In this document: piece by piece, positions 1,853 through 56,006 of the stretch
How positions within the stretch are numbered: position 1 is the first letter of the stretch
Layout: every line of letters starts with the position of its first letter
IMG/VR virus record: IMGVR_UViG_3300017963_000254
Location: 1-64,000 of that record
Length of the DNA stretch: 64,000 bases
Direction: 5' to 3' (one strand)
Origin: a virus
Notes under the pieces: model-generated
Database searches by the model: none
What the model was told of the DNA's origin: nothing
Seen by the model: only the letters and a program-made list of their open reading frames with translations
Translations under genes and position numbers: made by a program

Positions 1853-2665
1853 GTGACAAAGGCCGAGAAAGAAGGAGAAATGGGTTACTCAGGTGATGGT
1901 GGACCTCCCCCGCCTCCGGGCCAGGGAGGGGGCTTCAAGAGAAACGATCCGCAGTACGGGTTCAGCGAGCAGGTCACGAAGGACGGCAAGACCTTCATGA
2001 AGAGGGTCAAGACCTGGTACCTGCCGCCCGGGGCGAACGACAAGCCGTGCGTGATGCTGGACAGGAAGGGCAACCGCTACACGCTCACGATTCACGAGTT
2101 CGTCGGCCCGGATGGACGGAAGGGTTCGATGGTCCGCTGCATCGCGCGGGCGAACCCGAAGGAGGGCTGTCCGCTCTGCGACGCCCTCGGCAAGGAGGGG
2201 CGCTGGTACTGGGCGCTCACCTGCATCGACAAGAGCCGGTTCATTCCCAAGGAGGGAAGAAACGTCGGCAACGTCTACACCAACTTCCGCCGGCTGGTCC
2301 TCGTCACGTCCAAGGGATTCGACGACATGAAGGCGATCGAGGGCAAGTCCGAGGGCGGCTGGCACGGCCGGCGGTTCGACGTCTCGCGATCCGACGACTC
2401 GAAGAGCGCGAAGATCGGGACCAACTGGTTCCCCAACACTGATCAGCCCTCGCTCACCGACGATGAGATGAAGGCCGAGTTCGCCGAGGCGGCCGACAAC
2501 TACGGCATCCCCATCGAGAAGTTCATCGAGCCGTTCAACTACGATACCGTGCTGGCCCTGCCGAGCTACGACGAGGCCAAGCAGATCGCAGCCGCGATCA
2601 AGGGCACGGTCGATGGCGGTGGCGAGGACTCCCCCGAGGGGGACTCCGGCGCTATTTCGTTTTAG
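1853..2665 (+). CDS. gp32-type single-stranded DNA-binding protein
   Basis: The protein has 270 residues. After a Gly/Pro-rich start it has a central zinc-site pattern with Cys at the end of MVRC and a CPLC pair, in the layout of T4 gp32-like ssDNA-binding proteins. The C-terminus is acidic (EDSPEGDSG) and ends ISF, close to the acidic, Phe-ended tip with which SSB proteins bind partner replication enzymes. It would coat ssDNA during phage replication and recombination. The start is either GTG 1853 or ATG 1880; AAGGAG at 1872-1877 lies too close to 1880 for an ideal site, so both remain open. It has its own promoter element at 1823. Confidence 0.75.
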   Translation: MTKAEKEGEMGYSGDGGPPPPPGQGGGFKRNDPQYGFSEQVTKDGKTFMKRVKTWYLPPGANDKPCVMLDRKGNRYTLTIHEFVGPDGRKGSMVRCIARANPKEGCPLCDALGKEGRWYWALTCIDKSRFIPKEGRNVGNVYTNFRRLVLVTSKGFDDMKAIEGKSEGGWHGRRFDVSRSDDSKSAKIGTNWFPNTDQPSLTDDEMKAEFAEAADNYGIPIEKFIEPFNYDTVLALPSYDEAKQIAAAIKGTVDGGGEDSPEGDSGAISF

Positions 2666-2684
2666 GTAGTATTCCAGAAGCCCG

Positions 2685-2693
2685 TGCTATCAT
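2685..2693 (+). promoter_or_regulatory. possible extended -10 promoter TGCTATCAT
   Basis: TGCTATCAT has the TGn extension and a TATCAT hexamer 24 nt before ATG 2717, with a Shine-Dalgarno sequence (GAGGAGG, 2706-2712) in between. It differs from the GGGTAGAAC type. No clear -35 box is visible, so the call is tentative. Confidence 0.35.
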
Positions 2694-2716
2694 GGTGTCT
2701 CCAGCGAGGAGGCACC

Positions 2717-3490
2717 ATGAGCACGGTAGCGGTTGGAGACGCCTACGGGATGTGGACGGTGGTCACGGCGGCGGAGCCGCTCGTTAGCGGCAAGAAGCGG
2801 AAGCGGAAGCTGCGACGGTGGCTCTGCCGATGCGACTGCGGCAACGAGCGACGTGTTCTGGAGAAGAACCTCAAGAACGGCGGCTCGACCGGGTGCGGGT
2901 GCCAGCTGTCGTACGGGATCCGATGGACCGACGAGTTGATCGAGGAGCGGCTGAGAGAGCATTCGGGAGAGTTGGGGCGTATGCCGACGTCCGTTGAGCT
3001 TTGCGAGCGGGAAGGTGACTCGGCCCTCGCGACGATCGTCGGTCGGCGCGGCGGCTATCGGGTGTGGGCCTACCGGATCGGTCTGCCGCTGTCGGGAGGT
3101 ACGGTTCACCGAGGTGCCGCGTGGGAGGATCACGAGGAGCGCTTCTTCCGGGAGCTGGGTCTTGCGGTCGTCCGACAACGGACCAAGGCGGTGTTCGATC
3201 TGCTGGTTGCCGAGCGTCGGGTAGATGTGAAGTCCGCGAGATGGTCGGCGTATGCGCGGGGCGCGACAACGGTGCGCGGCTACGTGTTCGGTAACCTGCG
3301 CGGTGGGACTGACTGCGACTTCTTCGATCTGCTCTGTATCGAGGATGGCGCCGTCGCTCACCGTTTCATCATTCCAAGCAGCGCGACTCGGGTGCAGACG
3401 CTCACGATCACCGAGCGGACCCTGGGCGGGTTCGGCAAGTACTCCGAGTGGCGGGACCGCATCGACCTGCTGTCTGGCGAGTCTCGATGA
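2717..3490 (+). CDS. putative free-standing homing endonuclease (zinc ribbon plus PD-(D/E)xK-like core)
   Basis: The start is ATG 2717 with GAGGAGG upstream; 257 residues. The N-terminus holds the cysteine cluster WLCRCDCGNE (residues 35-44) and GCGC (59-62), the zinc ribbon common in phage HNH/AP2-type endonucleases. A middle part (about 68-130) looks like a DNA-binding helical module. The C-terminal part has D161 and DVK (170-172) in strand-like surroundings, which suits a PD-(D/E)xK nuclease core. The gene sits alone between replication genes, with its own possible promoter, as free-standing homing endonuclease genes often do. The nuclease call is inferred from a short motif only; no HNH histidines are seen. 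Confidence 0.5.
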   Translation: MSTVAVGDAYGMWTVVTAAEPLVSGKKRKRKLRRWLCRCDCGNERRVLEKNLKNGGSTGCGCQLSYGIRWTDELIEERLREHSGELGRMPTSVELCEREGDSALATIVGRRGGYRVWAYRIGLPLSGGTVHRGAAWEDHEERFFRELGLAVVRQRTKAVFDLLVAERRVDVKSARWSAYARGATTVRGYVFGNLRGGTDCDFFDLLCIEDGAVAHRFIIPSSATRVQTLTITERTLGGFGKYSEWRDRIDLLSGESR

Positions 3491-4380: not shown

Positions 4381-4499
4381 CGACTCGATCGTCTTCACGG
4401 CTCCTCGTATCGGCCCGATGAGTATTCGAGGCGACAGAGACCCGGAAACGAGGGGCTTACTTCAGCGTGGTGTGCCGGGCCGCCACTGAGAGAGTTCTC

Positions 4500-7400
4500 A
4501 TGCCACAGCTCATCAAAGACATCGACACCGGCGACGTAGAGCCGGTTCGCCTCATAGACACCGCGCGTTCGCGCGGTGCTTTCGTATTCGATCTCGAGAC
4601 TACAGGTCTCGTGCCCAGGCGTGACCGTATCGAGGGCATCGCCTTCTACGTTCCGCCTGACGAGCCGACGCAGACACCCGAGCTGCGGGCCTGGTACCCG
4701 TTCATCCCCGACTCGTATCGCACGTGGGTTCAGCCTGACGATGGCGGCAAGCCGATCGTCAAGAACCTCCGGGCGGCGATGCCCCAGGCCGAGACGATGG
4801 CAGCGCTCCGGCCGCTGTTCGAGGAGAGCCCGGGAACGATCGCGGTCGCCCACAACTGCCTTCAATACAACACGCGCGTTTTGCTTGCTGATGGCTCAAC
4901 CGAGCTTATCGGGAAGATCGTCAACCAGCGGTTGCCTGTATCTGTCATGTCGTGGGATGGCGAGCGGTTTGTCGCAAAGCGGGTAACGAACTGGTGGCGG
5001 AACGGCCGGAGAGACGACTGGTACAAGCTGACCCTGTCTCACAAACCCGTGGGCGCGTGCCTGTACGTTACCGGCGACCACGAGGTCTACTTGTCGAATG
5101 AGGAGAAGAGGCGAGTAGCAGACCTTCGGCCCGGCGATGTGCTGCTGCGGTCAGAACCGCTTCTCTCTCCAGCGCAGAAGCAAGTGGTGCTCGGGACCGC
5201 GCTCGGAGACGGGAGTTTCACTAGAACATCGGCGAGCGTGAGTCACTTCCTGTCTGTGGGACATGCGCCGTCTCAGGAGGAGTATCTCGACTGGAAGGTC
5301 AGGATGCTCGGGCGCATGGTCAGTTCTCGATGGGAGGAGGCCAACAATCGCGGTTTTAGCGCCGCCGATGGTCGGATCATCAAGCTGCGGACAATCAACA
5401 GTGAGCAGTTCAGTCGTGCTGCCGAGACCGTTGTGGTGAACGGCCGGCGGCGGATTTCAGAAGAGGTGCTGGAAAACCTCGACGCTCGTGGGCTCGCCGT
5501 CTGGTACATGGATGACGGCAGCGTATGCGTCCGTAGAGGCGCGCTCTCCGCTGTTCGTCTACATGTCTACGCCTACCCGATTGACGACGTCGAACGTCTC
5601 TGCCACTGGCTCGCCGAGCGGTGGAGCATCATCGCCAAGAAGAGAAAGAAGACCGATCGCGGCGAATTCAAGGGCTACTACATCGAGATGACTGGAGAGA
5701 ACGCGCTCGCATTCTCCAAACTCGTTGCGCCGTTCGTGGTCCCGTCGATGTCGTACAAGCTGGCGCCCGGCGACCGGGGCGCGTTCGTCGATTGGACCGA
5801 GCGATTCGAGCATCCATCGCCGGCGACAGTGGTCAGCGTGGGTCGTTGTGGTATGCCGTCGAGCTACAGTCGAGTAGGTTTCGATCTGGAAGTGGAGGAC
5901 ACGCACCGATACTTCGCCAGCGGGATTCTCGTCTCGAATTGCAAGTTCGATGTCGCGTTCCTCAAGTACGCGAGCGGCTGCGCTCGCGGCTACTGGATGG
6001 AGCGTTCGGCCGTCGATCAGCTGGGCAACCTGGTCCGAGACGACGCCAACGAAGACCCGGCCCAGTGGTGGTGCAACGGCCTGCTCCTCGCCGACTCGAT
6101 GCTGGCCGACTTCCTCTGCGACGAGAACCTCTACCAGTACGGCCTGAAGCACCGGGTGAAGGACGTGCTCGGCCACGAGATGACGACCTACGTGGACGTG
6201 GCCCGTACCCGCAAGCAGGGCGTGCTGTCGTTCATGGCCGACGACGTCCAGACGCTCGGTTACTACGCGATGGAGGACTGCTACTGGACCTGGCGCCTCT
6301 TCGAGGACCGGATGCGGGAGCTGGACAGTCAGACGCCCGGCAAGCCGATTCCAGAGGAGGCGGTCGACGCGCTCGCCTGGCTCTACGAGGAGGGGCTCAA
6401 GCTCAGCCCGTTCGACAAGACTCGGGCGATGGGCAACCTCGAGCGGCTCTTCTGGGGGATCGACATGAGGATCTGCCAGATTCTCGAAGAGATGGAGAGC
6501 ACTGGCATCCTCATCGACTGGAAGTGGCTCCGGCAGGTCACCAAGGATCTCGAGGAGAAGAAGGAGAAGATCATCCGGCGGATCGAGGAGCGCATCGGCT
6601 GGACGCTGAACCCGAACAGCCAGCCGCAGGTCAGCGCGCTCCTCTTCAGCGCGAAGGAACACGGCGGCCTGGGGCTCAACTCCAAGGGGATCAAGCGCGG
6701 CAAGAGCGGCGGGATCTCGACCGGGTCGAAGGAGATCGGCCACCTACGCCGGGCCGATCCGATCGTGGCCGACATCCTCGACTGGCGATCAGCTGATACC
6801 GTGCGGGCGAACTTCTCCGAGAAGCTCGCTCGGATCGCTCAGGAGGAGCCCGACTGCCGGGTCTACTCTCACTTCAACCAGACCGGGACCGTGATCCATC
6901 GTTTGTCGTGCATCGCCGGATCGTCAAAGCTCGCCGTTCGCGTAGGAAACGACGAATACAAGCGTTCAACCAGAATCTCAGAGCTGTTGCGGTTTAGCGG
7001 CCAGACCGTTACCATCGAGACGCACAAGGGGCGGGAGCGCCGGATTACGCACCTGGTCAACAAGGGTCCGGGCTTCATGTTCGACGTGGAGACCGACGAT
7101 GGCTGCAAGATCCGCTGCACGGCCGACCACCGCTTCCTCACCGAGCGTGGGTGGCGTGCTCTCAAGGACATCCGTGTCGGGGACCGGCTTGTTCGAGCCG
7201 AGTTACGTGCGGCTCCTGCGGCCGGTGGACGGACGACGCTGGGTTCTGGATCGGCCGTCGTTCCTGCGGATCTTCGTGAAGGACACGCGGGCGGTGCGCT
7301 GGAAGATCCCGGACTACGGGCTGTCGAACGGGATCGCGCTGGTCTGCAAGGCGATCTACGGCTGGGAGTTCCCGCACCTGTTTCGGGGAACGCCGACGAA

Positions 7401-9425
7401 GCTGCCGGACCTGGCGGAGATCCTGCCGGAGTTCCCGACGTACGTGAGGCGGGCGCGCTCCAAGGGGTTCGTGCTCTCGCGGGAGTCGTTCCAGGCCGCG
7501 TTCGTGGACAGCGATCTGACGCAGGAGGAGGCGAAGGAGCGGTTCGGCATCGCGCACCAGTCGATGATTCGAGCCGTGAAGCTCTACCGCGAGTTCTCGG
7601 GCCAGCTCAAGGCCAAGCAGGCGCGGCTCATCAGCGCCCGCAAGCTGTCGGCGGAGCCGTTCTTCCCGCAGGAGGAGCTGGAGCGTCGGCTGTCGGCTGG
7701 GATGAGCGTGGAGGAGGTCGCAGCCGATTTGGGAGTCGGGTCATCGCTGGTCCTGATGGATCTGCGGCATCACGGGATCGCGCAGTCGAGCGGGAACGCT
7801 TCGCACTGGCTGGACAGCTTGTCGCAGCCGGAGCTGGATGCGCTGTCGCTGGTGAACCCGGCGATGGGAGCGCTGATCGGGGACGCGGCTACGGACTTTC
7901 CGGCGATGGTCGAGACGTACCAGCGGCTCGCGGAGCTTGCCGCGCTGCTCAAGGCGAGCTGGTCAACGCTCAAGGCGTTGCAGGTGCGCGGCGAGCTGCC
8001 GAAGGCCGCGCTGACCTTTGCCGCGAACGCGCAGGAGATGCGCCTGTCGCGCGCGCTGACGGCGGCCGGGATTCCGCACACACGACTGCTCTGCTTCCAC
8101 AAAAACTGGCAAGCGGACTTCGCGTGGCCGGAGAAGAAGCTGATGGTCGAGGTCGATGGCGAGTTTCACCGGAAGTGCGGGACGACCAAGAAGCGGGACG
8201 CCAGGAAGGCGCGCAAGGCGAAGCAGCTCGGCTACCGAGTCCTGCGCTTCACGACCGAGCAGGTGGACCGGGAGCTGCCGACCGTGGTGCGGCGGATCGC
8301 GGGCGCGCTTGGATGCGCGTTGCCGCGATCACTCCGGTTGGGGTAGAGACCGTCTGGGACATCACGGTCGAGGACGACGAAAGCTACGTCGCGCACGGGT
8401 TCCTGAACCACAACAGCAGCGATCCGGTCAATCTCCAGAACCAGCCGCGCGACCGCAACCTGATCCGCAAGGCGTTCTGCGCCTACTTCGAGGATGAGCT
8501 GGAGCCGGACATGCTCCTGTTCGGTGCCGACTACGGCCAGGTCGAGCTTCGCGTGGCCGCGCACCTGAGCGGCGACGAGGGCATGACCGAGGTCTACCAG
8601 ACCGGCAAGCCGTGCACGCGCGGCCCCGGCGGCGGCGCCTGCGAGCGCTACAAGTGGTGGGAGTGCGAGAACAAGGACGACGACGGGAACTACTGCGGGT
8701 ACACGTGGGTCCCGGAGCAGTGGGATCCGAAGAAGCCCGGCGCCCCTCTCACGTGCCCCAAGTGCGGCGGGCCGGAGATCGGTCATCAGAAGCGGTGCCG
8801 GCACGTCGACCTGCACCAGCGCACGGCCGAGGATGTCGGAGTTCCGAGAAACCCGCTCGCGAAGAACGCGAACTTCGGCTTGCTCTACCGGATGGCCGCT
8901 CCTCGGTTCTGCCAGTACGCTGATCTCTACGACGATCGCGGCGAGCCGATGATCGACTACGCGCAGTCGTTGATCGACGGATGGTTCGCGGCCTACCCGG
9001 CGATCCAGCCGTTCCACGACCGCACCGAGCGCTGGCTGCGCCAGAACGGCTGGTACGCCTGCACACTGACCGGCCGGCGTCGCCGGCTCGACCGGGAGCG
9101 ATGGAAGAACGAGTACCGTGCGGTCACGCAGGGCATCCAGTTTCGCGTCAGCGGTTCGGCACAGGACATTCTCAAGCGTGCCATGGTGGACATCGCCCAG
9201 GAGCGTGAGCGGAGGATCTTCTGGTCGCGGCCAGCTGAGAGCAAGCTCTGGCGAAGGCTCCGCTACATCATCCAGGTGCACGACGAGGTCATGCTCCAGG
9301 GGCCGGCGGTGCTCAAGGACGAGACGATCGATCTGATCAACACGAAGATGTGCGGCGCGGCCACGTTGAGCGTGCCTCTGACGGCGGACTGCAAAAGCGG
9401 GCGCACTTGGGATGACATTCACTGA
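4500..9425 (+). CDS. polA: family A DNA polymerase with two inteins
   Basis: One open frame of 1641 codons from ATG 4500 (an upstream GTG at 4467 is in frame but lacks conserved residues). Removing the two inteins leaves 778 residues. The 3'-5' exonuclease is present: DLETTGL (Exo I), HN-CKFD (Exo II, split by intein 1) and YYAMEDCYW (Exo III). Polymerase motifs are RLS-SSDP..NLQ (split by intein 2), DYGQVELR (motif A), KNANFGLLYR (motif B) and VHDEV (motif C). There is no 5'-3' exonuclease domain, as in replicative phage polymerases of the T7 sort. Between motifs A and B, about 8609-8805, is a Cys-rich insertion with CPKC and several other Cys and His residues, probably a zinc site, which is unusual for this family. 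It should be the replicative polymerase. Activity requires both inteins to splice. Confidence 0.9.
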   Translation: MPQLIKDIDTGDVEPVRLIDTARSRGAFVFDLETTGLVPRRDRIEGIAFYVPPDEPTQTPELRAWYPFIPDSYRTWVQPDDGGKPIVKNLRAAMPQAETMAALRPLFEESPGTIAVAHNCLQYNTRVLLADGSTELIGKIVNQRLPVSVMSWDGERFVAKRVTNWWRNGRRDDWYKLTLSHKPVGACLYVTGDHEVYLSNEEKRRVADLRPGDVLLRSEPLLSPAQKQVVLGTALGDGSFTRTSASVSHFLSVGHAPSQEEYLDWKVRMLGRMVSSRWEEANNRGFSAADGRIIKLRTINSEQFSRAAETVVVNGRRRISEEVLENLDARGLAVWYMDDGSVCVRRGALSAVRLHVYAYPIDDVERLCHWLAERWSIIAKKRKKTDRGEFKGYYIEMTGENALAFSKLVAPFVVPSMSYKLAPGDRGAFVDWTERFEHPSPATVVSVGRCGMPSSYSRVGFDLEVEDTHRYFASGILVSNCKFDVAFLKYASGCARGYWMERSAVDQLGNLVRDDANEDPAQWWCNGLLLADSMLADFLCDENLYQYGLKHRVKDVLGHEMTTYVDVARTRKQGVLSFMADDVQTLGYYAMEDCYWTWRLFEDRMRELDSQTPGKPIPEEAVDALAWLYEEGLKLSPFDKTRAMGNLERLFWGIDMRICQILEEMESTGILIDWKWLRQVTKDLEEKKEKIIRRIEERIGWTLNPNSQPQVSALLFSAKEHGGLGLNSKGIKRGKSGGISTGSKEIGHLRRADPIVADILDWRSADTVRANFSEKLARIAQEEPDCRVYSHFNQTGTVIHRLSCIAGSSKLAVRVGNDEYKRSTRISELLRFSGQTVTIETHKGRERRITHLVNKGPGFMFDVETDDGCKIRCTADHRFLTERGWRALKDIRVGDRLVRAELRAAPAAGGRTTLGSGSAVVPADLREGHAGGALEDPGLRAVERDRAGLQGDLRLGVPAPVSGNADEAAGPGGDPAGVPDVREAGALQGVRALAGVVPGRVRGQRSDAGGGEGAVRHRAPVDDSSREALPRVLGPAQGQAGAAHQRPQAVGGAVLPAGGAGASAVGWDERGGGRSRFGSRVIAGPDGSAASRDRAVERERFALAGQLVAAGAGCAVAGEPGDGSADRGRGYGLSGDGRDVPAARGACRAAQGELVNAQGVAGARRAAEGRADLCRERAGDAPVARADGGRDSAHTTALLPQKLASGLRVAGEEADGRGRWRVSPEVRDDQEAGRQEGAQGEAARLPSPALHDRAGGPGAADRGAADRGRAWMRVAAITPVGVETVWDITVEDDESYVAHGFLNHNSSDPVNLQNQPRDRNLIRKAFCAYFEDELEPDMLLFGADYGQVELRVAAHLSGDEGMTEVYQTGKPCTRGPGGGACERYKWWECENKDDDGNYCGYTWVPEQWDPKKPGAPLTCPKCGGPEIGHQKRCRHVDLHQRTAEDVGVPRNPLAKNANFGLLYRMAAPRFCQYADLYDDRGEPMIDYAQSLIDGWFAAYPAIQPFHDRTERWLRQNGWYACTLTGRRRRLDRERWKNEYRAVTQGIQFRVSGSAQDILKRAMVDIAQERERRIFWSRPAESKLWRRLRYIIQVHDEVMLQGPAVLKDETIDLINTKMCGAATLSVPLTADCKSGRTWDDIH
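4857..5939 (+). mobile_element. intein 1 of the DNA polymerase (LAGLIDADG, Exo II site)
   Basis: The insert has 361 residues, from Cys (TGC 4857) to Asn (AAT 5937-5939). It begins CLQYNTRVLLADG (block A) and has VTGDHEVYL (block B), two LAGLIDADG-type motifs (LGTALGDGS and VWYMDDGSV) and a C-terminal end YFASGILVSN followed by extein Cys. The exteins rejoin as AHN-CKFD, an intact Exo II motif. The penultimate residue is Ser, not the usual His; functional inteins without this His are known. The endonuclease motifs keep their acidic residues, so it may still be able to home. Confidence 0.92.
6909..8414 (+). mobile_element. intein 2 of the DNA polymerase, interrupted by an endonuclease gene in another frame
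   Basis: The intein starts at Cys (TGC 6909) with CIAGSSKLAVRV, has block B (CTADHRFLTERGWRAL), and its N-terminal part ends near 7200. The C-terminal part begins around ATG 8313 (MRVAAITPVGVETVWDI) and ends GFLNHN at 8412-8414, followed by extein Ser. The rejoined extein is RLS-SSDPVNLQNQ, the polymerase motif near motif A. Between the two parts, about 7205-8312, the polymerase frame stays open but encodes Gly/Ala/Arg-rich sequence without recognisable domains, while the +1 frame encodes a nuclease. The C-part looks like a typical split-intein C fragment with its own Met. Confidence 0.85.
7189..8346 (+). CDS. Vsr/DUF559-like homing endonuclease nested in the polymerase intein, +1 frame
   Basis: This frame, shifted +1 from the polymerase, encodes about 385 residues. 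A TTG at 7189 with GGGGA upstream (7179-7183) or a GTG at 7207 are candidate starts. Two helix-turn-helix-like segments (around DLTQEEAKERFGIAHQS and MSVEEVAADLGVG) precede a C-terminal nuclease fold with AGIPHTR, DFAWPEKKLMVEVDGEFH and GYRVLRFT, which matches the Vsr-like homing endonucleases described beside split inteins in so-called fractured genes. It ends at TAG 8344-8346, overlapping the Met-started C-part of the intein by 34 nt. It probably supplies the homing activity that intein 2 lacks in its own frame. How it is translated is unknown. Confidence 0.8.
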   Translation: MFEPSYVRLLRPVDGRRWVLDRPSFLRIFVKDTRAVRWKIPDYGLSNGIALVCKAIYGWEFPHLFRGTPTKLPDLAEILPEFPTYVRRARSKGFVLSRESFQAAFVDSDLTQEEAKERFGIAHQSMIRAVKLYREFSGQLKAKQARLISARKLSAEPFFPQEELERRLSAGMSVEEVAADLGVGSSLVLMDLRHHGIAQSSGNASHWLDSLSQPELDALSLVNPAMGALIGDAATDFPAMVETYQRLAELAALLKASWSTLKALQVRGELPKAALTFAANAQEMRLSRALTAAGIPHTRLLCFHKNWQADFAWPEKKLMVEVDGEFHRKCGTTKKRDARKARKAKQLGYRVLRFTTEQVDRELPTVVRRIAGALGCALPRSLRLG

Positions 9426-9450
9426 GTAAGTAGTTGTGACTGTTGAGCTT

Positions 9451-9662
9451 ATGAGTAACTGCTGTGATGGAGGTGTTCAGCGAAAGGCTACAGCATCCTC
9501 AACGTCCACGAAGACGAGATTCTCCGGCGCGTTCGCGCCGGGGAATCGCTGCCCAAGATCGCGGCCGACTTCGATACGACGCACACCAACCTGCACAGGT
9601 GGCTCGGGACCACCGGCATTCGGGAGGAGCAGATCAAGTGCGTCCTCATCGAGTGTGACGAG
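9451..9662 (+). other. coding sequence upstream of the HNH gene that lacks a start codon in frame
   Basis: In the frame of the next gene, the codons from about 9480 read KGYSILNVHEDEILRRVRAG and continue as an HTH-like segment with a Cys pair, so this is real coding sequence joined to the HNH protein. But the frame has a stop at 9465-9467 and no ATG, GTG or TTG before 9663. ATG 9451 opens a different frame (MSNCCDGGVQR) that would join correctly if one base were gained near GCGAAAGG (about 9480-9487). This suggests a frameshift mutation, a sequencing error in the A run, or programmed frameshifting. Confidence 0.5.
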
Positions 9663-10133
9663 ATGTTCCCGTGGAAGCCGGTCAAACTGGCCTGCTGTCG
9701 TAAGCACATCAAGCGGTACAACGCGCGGGGAAAGTCGCCAGGCGAGCTGCTTCCGTGCTGCCTGCCCGAGTGCGACGAGCTGGTGCTTGTTCCTAATCGC
9801 GTCGATGGGCAGCTGTGGTGGTGCTGCCGAAAACATGGCAACGCGCATTACAAGCGAATCGAGACCGGCTTCTACGATCGACTGCGCGATCCTGGTTACC
9901 GATGCGCCGGGCGGAATCCGAATGGTCGCCCATGCTCCGAGCGCTACTGCATCGACGAGCACCATACGGTGTTCAAGAACGGCACGAGCCACAAGAAGGG
10001 TCCGGTTATCACGCTCTGCCCGACGCATCACATGGCCCTTCATCGCGGTCTCGCCATCTACGACGAGCGCGGCTATCGGTGGATTGTGCGGGGGATCCTC
10101 GACGGGCTGCGAGCGAAGCATCCAACGCTGTAG
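9663..10133 (+). CDS. HNH endonuclease with zinc-binding cysteines (5' part out of frame)
   Basis: From ATG 9663 the protein has 156 residues, with CCRKH, CCLPECDE and WCCRKH clusters and a C-terminal HNH nuclease (CSERYCIDEHHTVFKNG, then LCPTHHMALHRG). This is the layout of phage HNH homing endonucleases. It lies just downstream of the intein-containing polymerase gene. Homologous sequence appears to continue upstream to about 9480, so ATG 9663 is unlikely to be the original start; the N-terminal HTH-like segment is separated by the frame problem described for 9451-9662. Confidence 0.65.
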   Translation: MFPWKPVKLACCRKHIKRYNARGKSPGELLPCCLPECDELVLVPNRVDGQLWWCCRKHGNAHYKRIETGFYDRLRDPGYRCAGRNPNGRPCSERYCIDEHHTVFKNGTSHKKGPVITLCPTHHMALHRGLAIYDERGYRWIVRGILDGLRAKHPTL

Positions 10134-10142
10134 GAGGAGCTG

Positions 10143-10391
10143 GTGAGTAACGAGAAAGTGTTCGCGAAGGTGATCGGCAGCCCCTATCCGACATCCGTTG
10201 GTTTCGTTGTCTCCTGCGCGCGCGGCGAAACAAGGGTCTACGTTGGTGAGGTGAGCATCGAGAGGGCCATGCCGACAACGCGGTTCGTGCTCCAGAAGAA
10301 GGATGCGCGCGTATTCACCAGAGAAGCGGCCGAGGCGCTGGGCGGCGTGCTCTTCCAGCGCGAGACCGAGATCGAGCCGGCTGATGCCTAA
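10143..10391 (+). CDS. small hypothetical protein, 82 aa
   Basis: It starts at GTG 10143 behind a strong Shine-Dalgarno sequence (AGGAGG, 10133-10138) and overlaps the next gene by 8 nt. The sequence alternates strands and charged helices (for example VGFVVSCARGETRVYVGEV), suggesting a small soluble alpha/beta protein. I do not recognise a family. Its tight coupling to the following ParB-methyltransferase gene suggests they are made together. Confidence 0.6.
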   Translation: MSNEKVFAKVIGSPYPTSVGFVVSCARGETRVYVGEVSIERAMPTTRFVLQKKDARVFTREAAEALGGVLFQRETEIEPADA

Positions 10392-51074: not shown

Positions 51075-54000
51075 ATGTCGCCCGCTTTAAGTGCTGCTAG
51101 CGCCAATACTTCTGCCGTTCAGCTCAAGCCCTACTTCACCGACACCGACGACCCCTTCGAGGGGGTCGAGTGGGATCGTCGCCGAGCTGTGATCCAGAAC
51201 ACCGACGGCTCGGTCGTGTTCGAGATGGACGACGTCGAGGTGCCCGCGAGCTGGAGCCAGCGCGCGACCGACATCGTCGTCTCGAAGTACTTCCGCAAGG
51301 GCGGCGTGCCCGAGACCAGGACCGAGAAGTCGGTCCGGCAGGTCGTGCATCGGATCGCCAGCGCGCTAGCGTCGTCCGGCCAGCAGCAGGGCTACTTCTC
51401 CGCCACGACTGCGCGCGTCTTCTACCGCGAGCTGGCCTACCTGCTCGTGAACCAGGTTGGCTGCTTCAACTCGCCCGTCCTGTTCAACGTCGGCCTGGCC
51501 GAGATCTACGGCATCAAGGGCGAGTCGGCTGGTAACTGGGCCTGGGTCGAGTCGCTGAACGAGGCGGTGCAGACGAGCGACGGCTACTCGAGACCGCAGT
51601 CGTCGGCCTGCCAGCCATACCACTCGCTCGTTCTGACCGAGCGCGGCCTGATGCCCATCGGTCGGATCGTCGAGGAGAACGCTGTGGGCCTTCGTGTTCA
51701 CGACGGGGCGGGGTGGACTGAGGTCAAGGCGACCAAGGACAACAACACGAAACTGGTCTACAAGATCCAACTTGCCGATGGGCGGCAGGTCGAGGCGACG
51801 GCCGACCACCTGGTCTGTGCGCACACTCAGCGCCGCAAGAAGACCGAGGAGTGGGTGCCCGTTGGCGACCTTCAGCCGGGCATGTACATGCGCGCCTGTG
51901 TGAAGGCCGAGGAGGCCGCCTGGGATACGCGCACGGCGTCTGTCGCGGATGTGGCCAAGGCGGCGTTGGCCGGGTGGCTTCAGACGGATGGCTACGTCGG
52001 TCAACCTGAGAGCGCCGCGTCGCTCATCGTCGAGTTCGAGACGATCAACGAGCAGGAGCGGAATTGGGTGCTCCAGCACCTGCCTGTGGTGTTTGGCGAT
52101 GCCCACTACAACGTGATCGACGTAGAGACCGACGATCCGAAGGTGGACTACAAGCGCATTCGTCTCTACGGCGAGCACCTGCGACCGTTCGTCGATGACT
52201 ACGGGCTCATGGTGCGCAATCCGTCCCAGGTCGTCCCGCAGCGCGTGCTGACTGGAACACCGACCGAGCAGGTCGCCTATCTCCGCAGCGTGTTCCAGGC
52301 TGACGGTTACGTGAGTCTGAGGCGAAGCGCGGCGCTGGTCGCTGTCTCGAAGTGCTCTCGGAAGATGATGCAGGGCGTTCAGCAGATCCTCGCACGGCTC
52401 GGCGTCTACGCGCGATTGCGGCGGGCCGAGGAGAAGCGCGCCGGCCGCCACGACCGGTGGGTTGTGGCCATCGCCAACCTGTCGGAGCGCGAGCGGTTTG
52501 CGGACCTGATCGGGTTCATCGCTGCTGACAAGCAGGCCAAGCTGGACGAGAGCCTGGATCTCGATGGCAAGACCTGTCCTCCCGTGCGCTACGTGCCCGT
52601 CGAATCGATCGCCTGTGTTGGGGAGCGTCGGGTCTACGACATCCAGACCGGGACGGGAAAGTACCTCTGCGGCGACGTGCTCGTCCACAACTGCTTCATC
52701 CGCTCGGTCGAAGATGACCTCATGTCGATCGCCGAAGGGATCAAGACCGAGATGCGCCTCTTCAAGTGGGGTTCTGGCACCGGCACGAACTTCTCCAGGC
52801 TGCGCGCGCTGGGTGAGCCCCTCTCGGGCGGCGGATCGTCGTCGGGCGTGATGTCGTTCCTGCGCGCGTACGACACGGCGGCGGGTTCGGTGAAGTCCGG
52901 TGGGACGACGCGTCGGGCGGCGAAGATGGTGATTCTCGACGCCGACCACCCGGACGTTGAGCGGTTCATCGACTGGAAGGTGCAGGAGGAGAAGAAGGCG
53001 AAGGTACTCCTCGCGGCCGGCTTCTCTGGAGGCATCGACGGTGAAGCCTACCGCACCGTCTCCGGGCAGAACGCGAACAACACGGTGCGGGTGACCGATG
53101 GGTTCATGCGAGCTGCCGAGAAGGGCGAGTCGTGGTCCACGCGATTCCGCACGTCTGGTGAGGTGGCTACTAAGCTCGAGGCGAGGAGGCTGCTCCGCAA
53201 GATCGCGTCGGCCGTCTGGGAATGCGGAGATCCCGGCATCCAGTTCCACGACACGATCAACAGGTGGAACCCGACGCCGAACGCGGGCGAGATTCGGGCC
53301 ACGAACCCCTGCGTCAGCGGCGATACGCTCGTCGCTACCGCAGACGGACTACTTCCGATTCGGGATCTCGTCGGTCGCGCGCCTCGGGTGGTGACCACAG
53401 AGGGCGAGCAGGTAGCAACCGACGTGTTCTCGACGGGCCACAAGCCGGTGTACCGTCTCCGCACCAAATCGGGCTACTCGCTGAAGGTGACGGCCGATCA
53501 CCCCATCTGGGCTGCGGATCGCAACTGCTACGTGAAGGCGGCCGACCTCAAGCCTGGAAACAAGCTCCAGCTGGTGGAAGGACGGTTCGGTCAGGAGAGT
53601 CTGCCCCCTGCTCTGGCCGAGGCGATCGGCTATGCCATCGGCGACGGGTGCATCAGCGGCGGGGTGCTGATGCTTACTGCCGGTCGAGAGGGCGCCGATT
53701 TCCTCGGCGCCGTGGTGGAGACGCTCAACCGACACAAGCAGCGGCTTGCCGCCAAGAGCGGGGACGGACGGACCGGACGGCCTGTCTCCGTGGTCGAGGT
53801 GCCGACCGGCTGGCGAGTCGCGACTGAGGCGCTGGAGGTAGTCTCGATGTTCTCGGCCCACGGCGTACTGGACCGGGGGTCAGAGCACAAGGCGCTCACG
53901 GACCTGGCGCTTCGGCTCGACTCGCCGTCCATCGCGGCGCTGCTGCGTGGGCTGTTCACAGCCGATGGTACCGTGAGCTGCGACGGACCCGGGGGAAAGA

Positions 54001-56006
54001 ACGCGTACGTCGGGCTCGACAGCACCAGCATCAAGCTGCTGCGACAAGTCCAGGTCGTGCTCCTGGGATTCGGTATCAAATCGAAGCTCTACCTGAACCG
54101 TGGCGGTGATGACACGAAGGCGATGCCGGACGGACGCGGCGGTCTCAAGGACTACGAGACCAAGCCCCGGCACTCGCTCAGGATCAGCCGCTCGTCTCGG
54201 GTGGTGTTCGAGCAACGGATCGGATTCTCCCCGATGAGCCGGAGGCAGGGCGCCCTGGAGGAGATGAACCAGACGGTCGGCGCCTATGCCGACAAGATGA
54301 TCGATGCTTTCGAGGAGCTGGAACCGCTCGGCACTGAGGAAGTCTTCGACCTGCGGGTGCCCGCAGCGGCGCAGTTCGTGGCCAACGGCGTCCACGTTCA
54401 CAACTGCGGCGAGTACGGCTTCGTGGACGAGTCGGCCTGCAACCTCGCCAGCCTGAATCTGGTCAAGTTCCTCCGGCCAGATGGCTCGTTCGACACCGAG
54501 AGCTTCCGACGCGCGTGTCGGATCTTCATCCTCGCCCAGGAGATCATCGTCGATTACGCGAGCTACCCGACGAAGAAGATCGCCGAGAACAGCCACCAGC
54601 TCCGGCCCCTCGGGCTCGGCTACGCGAACCTCGGCGGCCTGCTCATGCGGCTTGGCCTGCCCTACGACAGCGACGACGGCCGCGCAGTCTGCTCGGCCGT
54701 CACGGCGCTCATGGGAGGAACCGCCTGGGAGATGTCGGCGGAGATCGCCGCGAAGGTCGGCTCGTTCGCCGGTTTCCCGTTCAACCGGGATTCCATGCTC
54801 CGCGTCGGCAAGATGCACCAGGACGCGCTCGACGACTTACCCCAGTGCCCGATCCGCGACGAGGCGAAGCTCACCTGGGAGCGCGCGCTGGACCTCGGCC
54901 GCGAGCACGGCTTCCGCAACGCGCAGTTGTCCTTGCTCGCCCCCACGGGAACCATTTCGTTCCTGATGGACTGCGACACGACGGGGATCGAGCCGACCTT
55001 CGCGTTGATCACTCAGAAGAAGCTCGCCGGCGGCGGCATGATGAAGATCACCAGCGGCGCGGTGATCGAGGCGCTCCAGACGCTCGGCTACTCGCCGGAT
55101 GAGCAGCGCGCGGTGGCCGAGTACATCGACGACAACGGGAAGATCGAGGACGCGCCGCACGTCAAGCCCGAGCACTACCCCGTATTCGCGTGCGCCACCG
55201 GCAGCAACGCGATCTCACCGGCCGGACACCTCGGGATGATGGCCGCCGCGCAGCCGTACCTCTGTGGCGGGATCTCCAAGACGTGCAACCTGCCGGAGAC
55301 GGCGACCGTCGAGGACATCGAGCGGCTCTACATGGACGCCTGGAAGATGGGGCTCAAGGCGGTGGCCGTGTTCCGTGCTGGGAGCAAGGGCTGCCAGGTG
55401 CTCACGTCGGGCCGGAAGAAGCGTCAGCCGGACGAGCCGGAGGCCGAGAAGGCGCAGGATGAGCAGGTCCGCGCGCGCCGCCGCCGCCACCGTCTGCCGA
55501 AGCGGCGGACTGGCTTCACCCAGGAAGCGACGATCGGCGGTCACAAGGTCTACCTGCGAACCGGCGAGTACGAGGATGGCTCCCTGGGGGAGATCTTCAT
55601 CGACATGCACAAGGAGGGAGCGACGTTGAGGAGTCTCCTCAACACGGTCGCCATCTCCATCTCGCTGGGGCTCCAGCACGGGGTGCCGCTCGAGGAGTAC
55701 GTGGACGCGTTCACGTGGACGCGGTTCCTGCCGGCCGGTCCGGTCGTCGGCCACGAGCACGTCAAGACGGCGACCTCGATCATCGACTACATCTTCAAGG
55801 TGCTTGCGGTCGAGTATCTCGGCAGGCATGACCTGGCTCACGTACACCCGCTCAAGAACAAGGGCGACAACAACGGGCAACCGCCGCCTCCGATAAACGG
55901 AGCTTCGCGCGAGGCTCAGATCTGTCCGCGCTGCGGTGGCCTGACGCAGACGAGCGGAACGTGCAGCGTGTGCGTTTCGTGCGGGGAGACCACAGGCTGC
56001 TCCTAA
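51075..56006 (+). CDS. nrdJ: class II (B12-dependent) ribonucleotide reductase with two inteins
   Basis: One frame of 1643 codons; after removal of the inteins 917 residues remain. Key motifs: GCFNSPVLFNVG, SSA-CFIRSVEDD (joined across intein 1), NP-CGEYGF with NLASLNL (joined across intein 2), LLAPTGTISFLMDCDTTGIE and KLAGGGMMKI, which mark the adenosylcobalamin-dependent NrdJ family. The C-terminal tail has CPRC and CVSC pairs and ends CS, the redox-active cysteines. It makes dNTPs without oxygen requirement. No class I or III genes are nearby. The CobS/CobT-like genes at the window start and the NrdR-like protein may connect to it. Confidence 0.92.
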   Translation: MSPALSAASANTSAVQLKPYFTDTDDPFEGVEWDRRRAVIQNTDGSVVFEMDDVEVPASWSQRATDIVVSKYFRKGGVPETRTEKSVRQVVHRIASALASSGQQQGYFSATTARVFYRELAYLLVNQVGCFNSPVLFNVGLAEIYGIKGESAGNWAWVESLNEAVQTSDGYSRPQSSACQPYHSLVLTERGLMPIGRIVEENAVGLRVHDGAGWTEVKATKDNNTKLVYKIQLADGRQVEATADHLVCAHTQRRKKTEEWVPVGDLQPGMYMRACVKAEEAAWDTRTASVADVAKAALAGWLQTDGYVGQPESAASLIVEFETINEQERNWVLQHLPVVFGDAHYNVIDVETDDPKVDYKRIRLYGEHLRPFVDDYGLMVRNPSQVVPQRVLTGTPTEQVAYLRSVFQADGYVSLRRSAALVAVSKCSRKMMQGVQQILARLGVYARLRRAEEKRAGRHDRWVVAIANLSERERFADLIGFIAADKQAKLDESLDLDGKTCPPVRYVPVESIACVGERRVYDIQTGTGKYLCGDVLVHNCFIRSVEDDLMSIAEGIKTEMRLFKWGSGTGTNFSRLRALGEPLSGGGSSSGVMSFLRAYDTAAGSVKSGGTTRRAAKMVILDADHPDVERFIDWKVQEEKKAKVLLAAGFSGGIDGEAYRTVSGQNANNTVRVTDGFMRAAEKGESWSTRFRTSGEVATKLEARRLLRKIASAVWECGDPGIQFHDTINRWNPTPNAGEIRATNPCVSGDTLVATADGLLPIRDLVGRAPRVVTTEGEQVATDVFSTGHKPVYRLRTKSGYSLKVTADHPIWAADRNCYVKAADLKPGNKLQLVEGRFGQESLPPALAEAIGYAIGDGCISGGVLMLTAGREGADFLGAVVETLNRHKQRLAAKSGDGRTGRPVSVVEVPTGWRVATEALEVVSMFSAHGVLDRGSEHKALTDLALRLDSPSIAALLRGLFTADGTVSCDGPGGKNAYVGLDSTSIKLLRQVQVVLLGFGIKSKLYLNRGGDDTKAMPDGRGGLKDYETKPRHSLRISRSSRVVFEQRIGFSPMSRRQGALEEMNQTVGAYADKMIDAFEELEPLGTEEVFDLRVPAAAQFVANGVHVHNCGEYGFVDESACNLASLNLVKFLRPDGSFDTESFRRACRIFILAQEIIVDYASYPTKKIAENSHQLRPLGLGYANLGGLLMRLGLPYDSDDGRAVCSAVTALMGGTAWEMSAEIAAKVGSFAGFPFNRDSMLRVGKMHQDALDDLPQCPIRDEAKLTWERALDLGREHGFRNAQLSLLAPTGTISFLMDCDTTGIEPTFALITQKKLAGGGMMKITSGAVIEALQTLGYSPDEQRAVAEYIDDNGKIEDAPHVKPEHYPVFACATGSNAISPAGHLGMMAAAQPYLCGGISKTCNLPETATVEDIERLYMDAWKMGLKAVAVFRAGSKGCQVLTSGRKKRQPDEPEAEKAQDEQVRARRRRHRLPKRRTGFTQEATIGGHKVYLRTGEYEDGSLGEIFIDMHKEGATLRSLLNTVAISISLGLQHGVPLEEYVDAFTWTRFLPAGPVVGHEHVKTATSIIDYIFKVLAVEYLGRHDLAHVHPLKNKGDNNGQPPPPINGASREAQICPRCGGLTQTSGTCSVCVSCGETTGCS
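51609..52691 (+). mobile_element. intein 1 of NrdJ (LAGLIDADG)
   Basis: 361 residues from Cys (TGC 51609) to Asn (AAC 52689-52691), followed by extein Cys. Block A is CQPYHSLVLTERG, block B has TADHLVCAHT, LAGLIDADG-type motifs are LAGWLQTDGY and LRSVFQADGY, and the end is GDVLVHN. It is inserted in SSA-CFI, a conserved site around the active-site region. Confidence 0.93.
53310..54404 (+). mobile_element. intein 2 of NrdJ (LAGLIDADG)
   Basis: 365 residues from Cys (TGC 53310) to Asn (AAC 54402-54404), followed by extein Cys. Block A is CVSGDTLVATADG, block B VTADHPIWAA, LAGLIDADG-type motifs IGYAIGDGCI and LRGLFTADGT, and the end is NGVHVHN. It sits between NP and CGE of the conserved NPCGE motif, a site known for ribonucleotide reductase inteins. 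Confidence 0.93.

Follow-up and report, generated by a model that had tools for sequence, protein, structure and literature searches.

The DNA analysed here, which we refer to as the window, is a 64,000-nucleotide stretch of the 74.5-kb virus record IMGVR_UViG_3300017963_000254. It contains a gene for a family A DNA polymerase that carries two inteins, the second of which (intein 2), together with the homing endonuclease gene lying across it in another reading frame, is the subject of this work (Table 1). As the original prediction had it, both splicing parts of intein 2 lie in the polymerase frame. Their motifs are intact, namely Cys1, the T..H of block B (RCTADH) and a C-terminal NHN followed by Ser+1. 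Even on the interrupted intein, the Pfam family Intein_splicing scores 55 bits against a cut-off of 35.8. Between the two parts, the +1 frame encodes a protein of 385-396 residues that matches Pfam DUF559 (E=1.3e-10), with weak helix-turn-helix matches, and ends at 8346. The nuclease gene runs into both splicing halves. The polymerase frame has no stop codon in 7203-8312, in comparison with 12 in the third frame, so the reported opening of about 370 codons is real. A Pfam search with this frame, which we call the filler, returned no match, and intein 2 is thus without an in-frame endonuclease domain.

Table 1. Coordinates of the polymerase gene, its inteins and related features. Positions refer to the window unless a locus is given.
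Feature	Position	Strand	Basis
Family A DNA polymerase, host gene with two inteins, frame 0, uninterrupted	4467..9425	+	Open reading frame; Pfam DNA_pol_A 2e-52
Intein 1, ordinary LAGLIDADG intein of the polymerase	4857-5939
Intein 2, 502 codons in the polymerase frame, insertion point RLS^SSDP	6909..8414	+	Cys1...NHN/Ser; Intein_splicing
N-terminal splicing part, Cys1 through block B and GDRLVRAE	6909..7202	+	Kept in four phages (alignments)
Filler, 370 polymerase-frame codons, stop-free and domain-free	7203..8312	+	Stop-avoidance and neutrality tests; disordered model
C-terminal splicing part, blocks F and G, NHN end before Ser+1	8313..8414	+	Alignments
Putative homing endonuclease gene, +1 frame, GTG to TAG, 396 residues, DUF559 domain near C-terminal end	7156..8346	+	Pfam; conserved GTG/TAG; fold match
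Possible alternative nuclease start ATG, Shine-Dalgarno-like GGAG upstream	7099..7101	+	ATG here or at neighbouring codon in 4/4
Stretch missing from the mini-intein of the near relative L006/L017	7172..8332	+	blastn blocks stop at 7171 and restart at 8333
HNH-like genes after the polymerase	9480-10133; L001:12006-12671; L003:9555-10205
G001 helicase intein, motif II (DE^C), LAGLIDADG_2 nuclease in +2 frame, open host frame	L055:979-3789	minus
Xanthomonas phage FoX3 gp40, same helicase site (DE^C), LAGLIDADG_2 nuclease in +2 frame, open host frame	L070:1884-4250

When viral contigs were searched with the nuclease, three homologous loci emerged, L001, L002 and L003, each 57-61% identical to it along almost its entire length. 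In each of them the nuclease occupies the +1 frame within an intein at the equivalent polymerase site, the polymerase frame reads through, and, as in the window, the TAG stop of the nuclease gene falls inside the C-terminal splicing part. The nested set therefore consists of four sequences from separate assemblies that are related to one another. The Cys1-class (Hint) residues of the window intein are identical in L001 and L002, and all four nested inteins exceed the curated Intein_splicing cut-off. Fractured genes, in which the host frame is broken and a homing endonuclease gene separates the two halves of a split intein, are said to have been described by Dassa and colleagues in 2009. Since the frame is open in all four phages, the arrangement is nested rather than fractured and the host gene is never interrupted, as had been proposed from the window. 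Further searches with the nuclease revealed no relatives in the genome contig and phage collections and only a partial match in the plasmid collection, while two DNA-pattern scans and further viral scans gave no loci beyond the known nested ones.

Long shadow frames are common at the G+C content of the window, a caution raised with the original prediction, and the open frame might reflect chance or else assembly errors that displace an in-frame endonuclease. Long shadow frames are unexpected in the homologues, however, because the G+C content of their inteins is only 0.565 (L001), 0.62 (L002) and 0.55 (L003), and assembly error is excluded because the nested layout recurs in three other contigs, with identical frames in four separate assemblies. 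When nuclease codons were redrawn from the codon usage of each phage, the expected numbers of polymerase-frame stops were 6.9 in the window, 18.0 in L001, 11.4 in L002 and 17.3 in L003, and none was observed in any of them. The chance of finding no stop is 0.0006 for the window and less than 1 in 20,000 for each homologue. In this register, a polymerase-frame stop arises only where a T-ending nuclease codon precedes GA, AG or AA. Such codons are absent from this context in all four phages (0/60, 0/81, 0/74 and 0/72 in the window, L001, L002 and L003), whereas elsewhere in the same genes T-ending codons account for 19/234, 48/207, 34/221 and 43/208, respectively (Fisher p = 0.011, 2e-8, 3e-5 and 8e-7). 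Same-context rates taken from control genes give P values of 0.011, 7e-9, 2e-5 and 1e-9 in the same order, and a within-gene shuffle of synonymous codons gives P<=0.0004 for the three homologues. These per-phage values are not to be multiplied, since the sequences share kinship. The absence of stop-making codons in all four phages demonstrates that selection keeps the polymerase frame free of stops; the window is borderline by itself (P=0.07 in the within-gene permutation, which speaks for chance) and the four-phage set is decisive. With 17-18 stops expected and none found at a G+C content of 0.55-0.57, chance or error as the source of the open frame has a vanishingly small probability; error would take an identical pair of mistakes in all four contigs.

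We then asked what the selected frame encodes. Third codon positions of the nuclease, which are the first positions of filler codons, diverge by 0.40-0.52, compared with 0.17-0.28 at second positions. Pairwise similarity of the filler exceeds a synonymous-shuffle null by about the same margin as that of the third frame; since the two exceed it about equally, common ancestry explains the similarity. An AlphaFold model of the frame-0 intein, built on a shallow alignment, shows the insert as disordered and is otherwise uninformative. The proposal that the filler is a conserved domain was rejected, as Pfam is blank and the homologues resemble one another no more in this frame than in the third, and a neutrality test on the four phages detected no protein-level constraint on it. 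Overall, the information is carried by the nuclease frame, which is under purifying selection, and the polymerase frame is merely kept open.

All four nested nucleases exceed the DUF559 cut-off (best E 5e-12; the window protein scores 41.5 bits against 20.6). The best Foldseek match of the nuclease model is the catalytic domain of I-Bth0305I (3r3p; template modelling score 0.78 by target length, E 2.6e-3), followed by the DUF559-like structure 3hrl and Vsr, and a separate profile search of PDB sequences returned the same top two, I-Bth0305I (E 0.011) and then 3hrl. As to the EDxHD catalytic motif of homing endonucleases, the conserved DFAW...VEVDG..H is similar to a PD-(D/E)XK core, by motif resemblance rather than by residue mapping onto I-Bth0305I. 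The DUF559 and fold matches are consistent with a nuclease of the Vsr/DUF559 type, and the family, frame and end at 8346 given in the original prediction are upheld. The predicted start, TTG 7189, was rejected because it is not shared among the homologues, and the predicted helix-turn-helix modules amount to the weak matches mentioned above. The only start codon at one shared position in all four phages is GTG 7156. An ATG is also found in all four, at one or the other of two adjacent codons (7099 in the window) and with a Shine-Dalgarno-like GGAG or AGGTGG upstream; its presence is partly forced by the Asp-Gly of block B. In the polymerase frame, synonymous sites are conserved from about 7140 onwards (76/87 identical compared with 174/284 upstream, p=2e-6, with pairs that are not independent), and for this reason GTG 7156 fits better than ATG 7099. 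Judged from the alignments, the nuclease is most likely made by internal initiation at GTG 7156, with ATG 7099 as a possible start.

Selection for an open frame would be pointless unless ribosomes translated the filler as part of the polymerase, and it is therefore highly probable that intein 2 is a cis-splicing intein overlapped out of frame by its own homing endonuclease gene. The ribosome would read the polymerase frame straight through to give a single precursor, in which an unstructured filler of about 370 residues would occupy the usual place of an in-frame endonuclease domain, and the splicing halves would excise the entire 502-residue intein in cis. The nuclease would be translated separately from the +1 frame of the same DNA and would cut polymerase alleles that do not have the intein, after which repair would insert a copy of the whole unit. 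As the polymerase is needed, selection would purge every stop from its frame and leave the filler sequence otherwise free. Some points weigh against this reading. The nested set comprises only four sequences, which are not fully independent; the stop avoidance of the window itself is borderline in the context test (P=0.011) as well as in the permutation; the C-terminal end of the L003 intein is NKN (then Ser) and not NHN; the nuclease model is of low confidence (mean predicted local distance difference test score 57, higher in the C-terminal domain, mostly 56-81); and GTG 7156 is not preceded by a canonical Shine-Dalgarno sequence.

The original prediction had offered two outcomes, a single chain with a long dummy insert that splices in cis, or a C-terminal part that is also started at ATG 8313 and splices in trans. 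Although the window does have this ATG, and truly split versions of a similar out-of-frame layout occur in helicase genes of other phages, the homologues read WARV, GARI and WTRV where the window has WMRV. ATG 8313 was accordingly rejected as the start of the C-terminal part. Moreover, a split intein gives no reason for the polymerase frame to be stop-free, and we regard trans splicing of the kind found in fractured genes as very improbable. The selected open frame, the lack of a conserved start for the C-terminal part, the unconstrained insert and the existence of an insert-free relative (L006, see below) all argue for the single chain, and cis splicing thus appears far likelier than trans.

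A further possibility is programmed +1 frameshifting. If it took place close to TTCGAGCCGAG (7192-7202), an invariant sequence, it would yield a fusion of N-extein, N-intein and nuclease while in-frame ribosomes make the polymerase. The junction, NTT CGA then GAG, is invariant in all four phages, and CGA is a low-frequency arginine codon. However, dual coding (RAE and FEP) also explains the invariance of this sequence, synonymous conservation starts about 50 bases earlier (7140-7158), and the codon ahead of CGA varies (GTT, CTT, ATT, CTT); such a frameshift is therefore unlikely. Phage introns often host out-of-frame nuclease genes, and an RNA intron within the intein might, on this general precedent, remove the nuclease region before translation. 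An Rfam search of 4400-10200 gave no match at E<=1, though, and since the nuclease frame overlaps both splicing parts, an intron containing it would delete intein motifs. Nor would an intron require an open host frame, and we give this explanation almost no weight.

The distribution of intein 2 is consistent with a mobile element. Locus L006, from a phage whose polymerase N-extein is 92% identical to that of the window, has a 134-residue mini-intein at the same polymerase site, without nuclease and without filler, which also exceeds the Intein_splicing cut-off. Its N-intein is 75% identical to that of the window in the search alignment and carries a small deletion. The site is empty in L009, L010 and L013. 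Between the window and L002, identity is 31% for the polymerase, compared with 77% for the N-intein and 59% for the nuclease. Because the intein and its nuclease are more alike than the surrounding polymerase, the unit has most likely been transferred horizontally between phages, as expected of a mobile element. L006/L017 is otherwise colinear with the window and lacks four stretches grouped around the polymerase, at 2656-3486 (an open reading frame of unknown family), 4857-5939 (intein 1), 7172-8332 (the nested nuclease) and 9426-10383 (a stretch with an HNH-like gene). A gene for an HNH-like protein directly follows the polymerase in 3/4 of the nested-intein phages (55-56% identity). L011 and L012 have a different in-frame intein one residue upstream in the polymerase motif (RL^S in comparison with RLS^S); two inteins therefore use adjacent sites of this motif.

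An inspection by eye of other inteins in the related records, aimed at open reading frames in alternate frames, gave a single second case, unrelated to the first: the helicase intein of G001, the phage of L001. It matches Intein_splicing (E=1.9e-10) and its nuclease matches LAGLIDADG_2 (E=1.9e-16), with a stop null of P=0.004. The annotation of the cultured phage FoX3 treats gp40 as a single helicase and omits its out-of-frame nuclease (E=1e-21, stop null P=0.015). In the Pectobacterium phages Amona (L066) and Ymer (L067), the DE^C site is split into an N-gene, a nuclease and a C-gene; the nuclease, again in the +2 register, shares 166 bases with the N-gene and 71 with the C-gene. The Escherichia phage AN_ECEAS (L068) has the same split layout, with an unannotated nuclease frame at ~2372-3247. 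Judging by these gene layouts, the helicase site occurs in both open and fractured states, and the pair suggests a route by which fractured genes arise. It is conceivable, though we rate the chance as somewhat short of even, that phage inteins have arrived at out-of-frame nesting repeatedly and independently, using different nucleases, frames and host genes, and that this state is the missing step from contiguous inteins to fractured genes. With the nuclease already translated from a frame of its own, one stop codon in the unconstrained filler, together with a start before the C-terminal part, would then convert a nested intein to a split one.

Several known systems share features with intein 2. 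A canonical bifunctional intein such as the LAGLIDADG intein 1 likewise has its insertion between splicing blocks B and F, but encodes the endonuclease in frame, where intein 2 encodes the filler. The helicase DE^C inteins of G001 (L055) and FoX3 have the same combination of an open host frame, splicing parts and an out-of-frame nuclease; they differ in the LAGLIDADG_2 nuclease, the +2 frame and the host gene. In fractured genes, intein halves also flank a separately read homing endonuclease gene, and the catalytic domain of the intein 2 nuclease matches, by low-confidence model and profile, I-Bth0305I, which we take to be representative of the nuclease family described with them. Unlike fractured genes, intein 2 has an unbroken host frame, a C-terminal part without a conserved start and a nuclease that overlaps both halves. 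The closest precedent is the ShiLan domain, in which an HNH nuclease is inserted out of frame into a methylase gene whose own frame stays open (PMC11855218). As in intein 2, a homing-type nuclease lies in another frame of the insertion, the host frame is stop-free, the filler is modelled as poorly structured, a GTG start is proposed and the distribution is patchy (PMC11855218). The ShiLan insertion lacks splicing domains and is retained in the protein, and its nuclease is HNH in the third frame (PMC11855218). In intein 2, by contrast, the insertion sits inside a complete intein, the nuclease is DUF559/I-Bth0305I-like in the +1 frame, and the overlap has about twice the length, with the selection on its open frame measured. 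No description of an intein with an out-of-frame endonuclease was found in the literature searched, whose scope did not include subscription journals.

The arrangement suggests that a parasite gene can occupy the same DNA as its own removable wrapper by using a second reading frame. Nuclease and splicing domain may then be expressed and evolve apart, and the host need only keep one frame stop-free. For overlapping-gene theory, it offers a rare clean case, a selected overlap of 370 codons in which one frame seemingly codes only for the absence of stops. Nested inteins would also suggest, in concrete and testable terms, how naturally split inteins could arise. Out-of-frame intein nucleases are probably under-counted because longest-frame annotation hides them, as in FoX3.

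Further intein genes were observed in the window and in G001. L001:4482-11873 is a single polymerase gene with four inteins, namely the one with the nested nuclease, an HNH-like one and two whose middles look LAGLIDADG-like by eye. In L056 (G001:39000-45000, minus strand), the sequence shifts frame after an intein C-terminal end, SVHNSTRWG, and continues in the next open reading frame, and intein matches flank an upstream stop; this is possibly a further split or shifted intein gene. In the window itself, 51075-56006 is an open reading frame of 1643 residues, in which 51717-51887 and 53415-54404 give additional matches to intein splicing domains.
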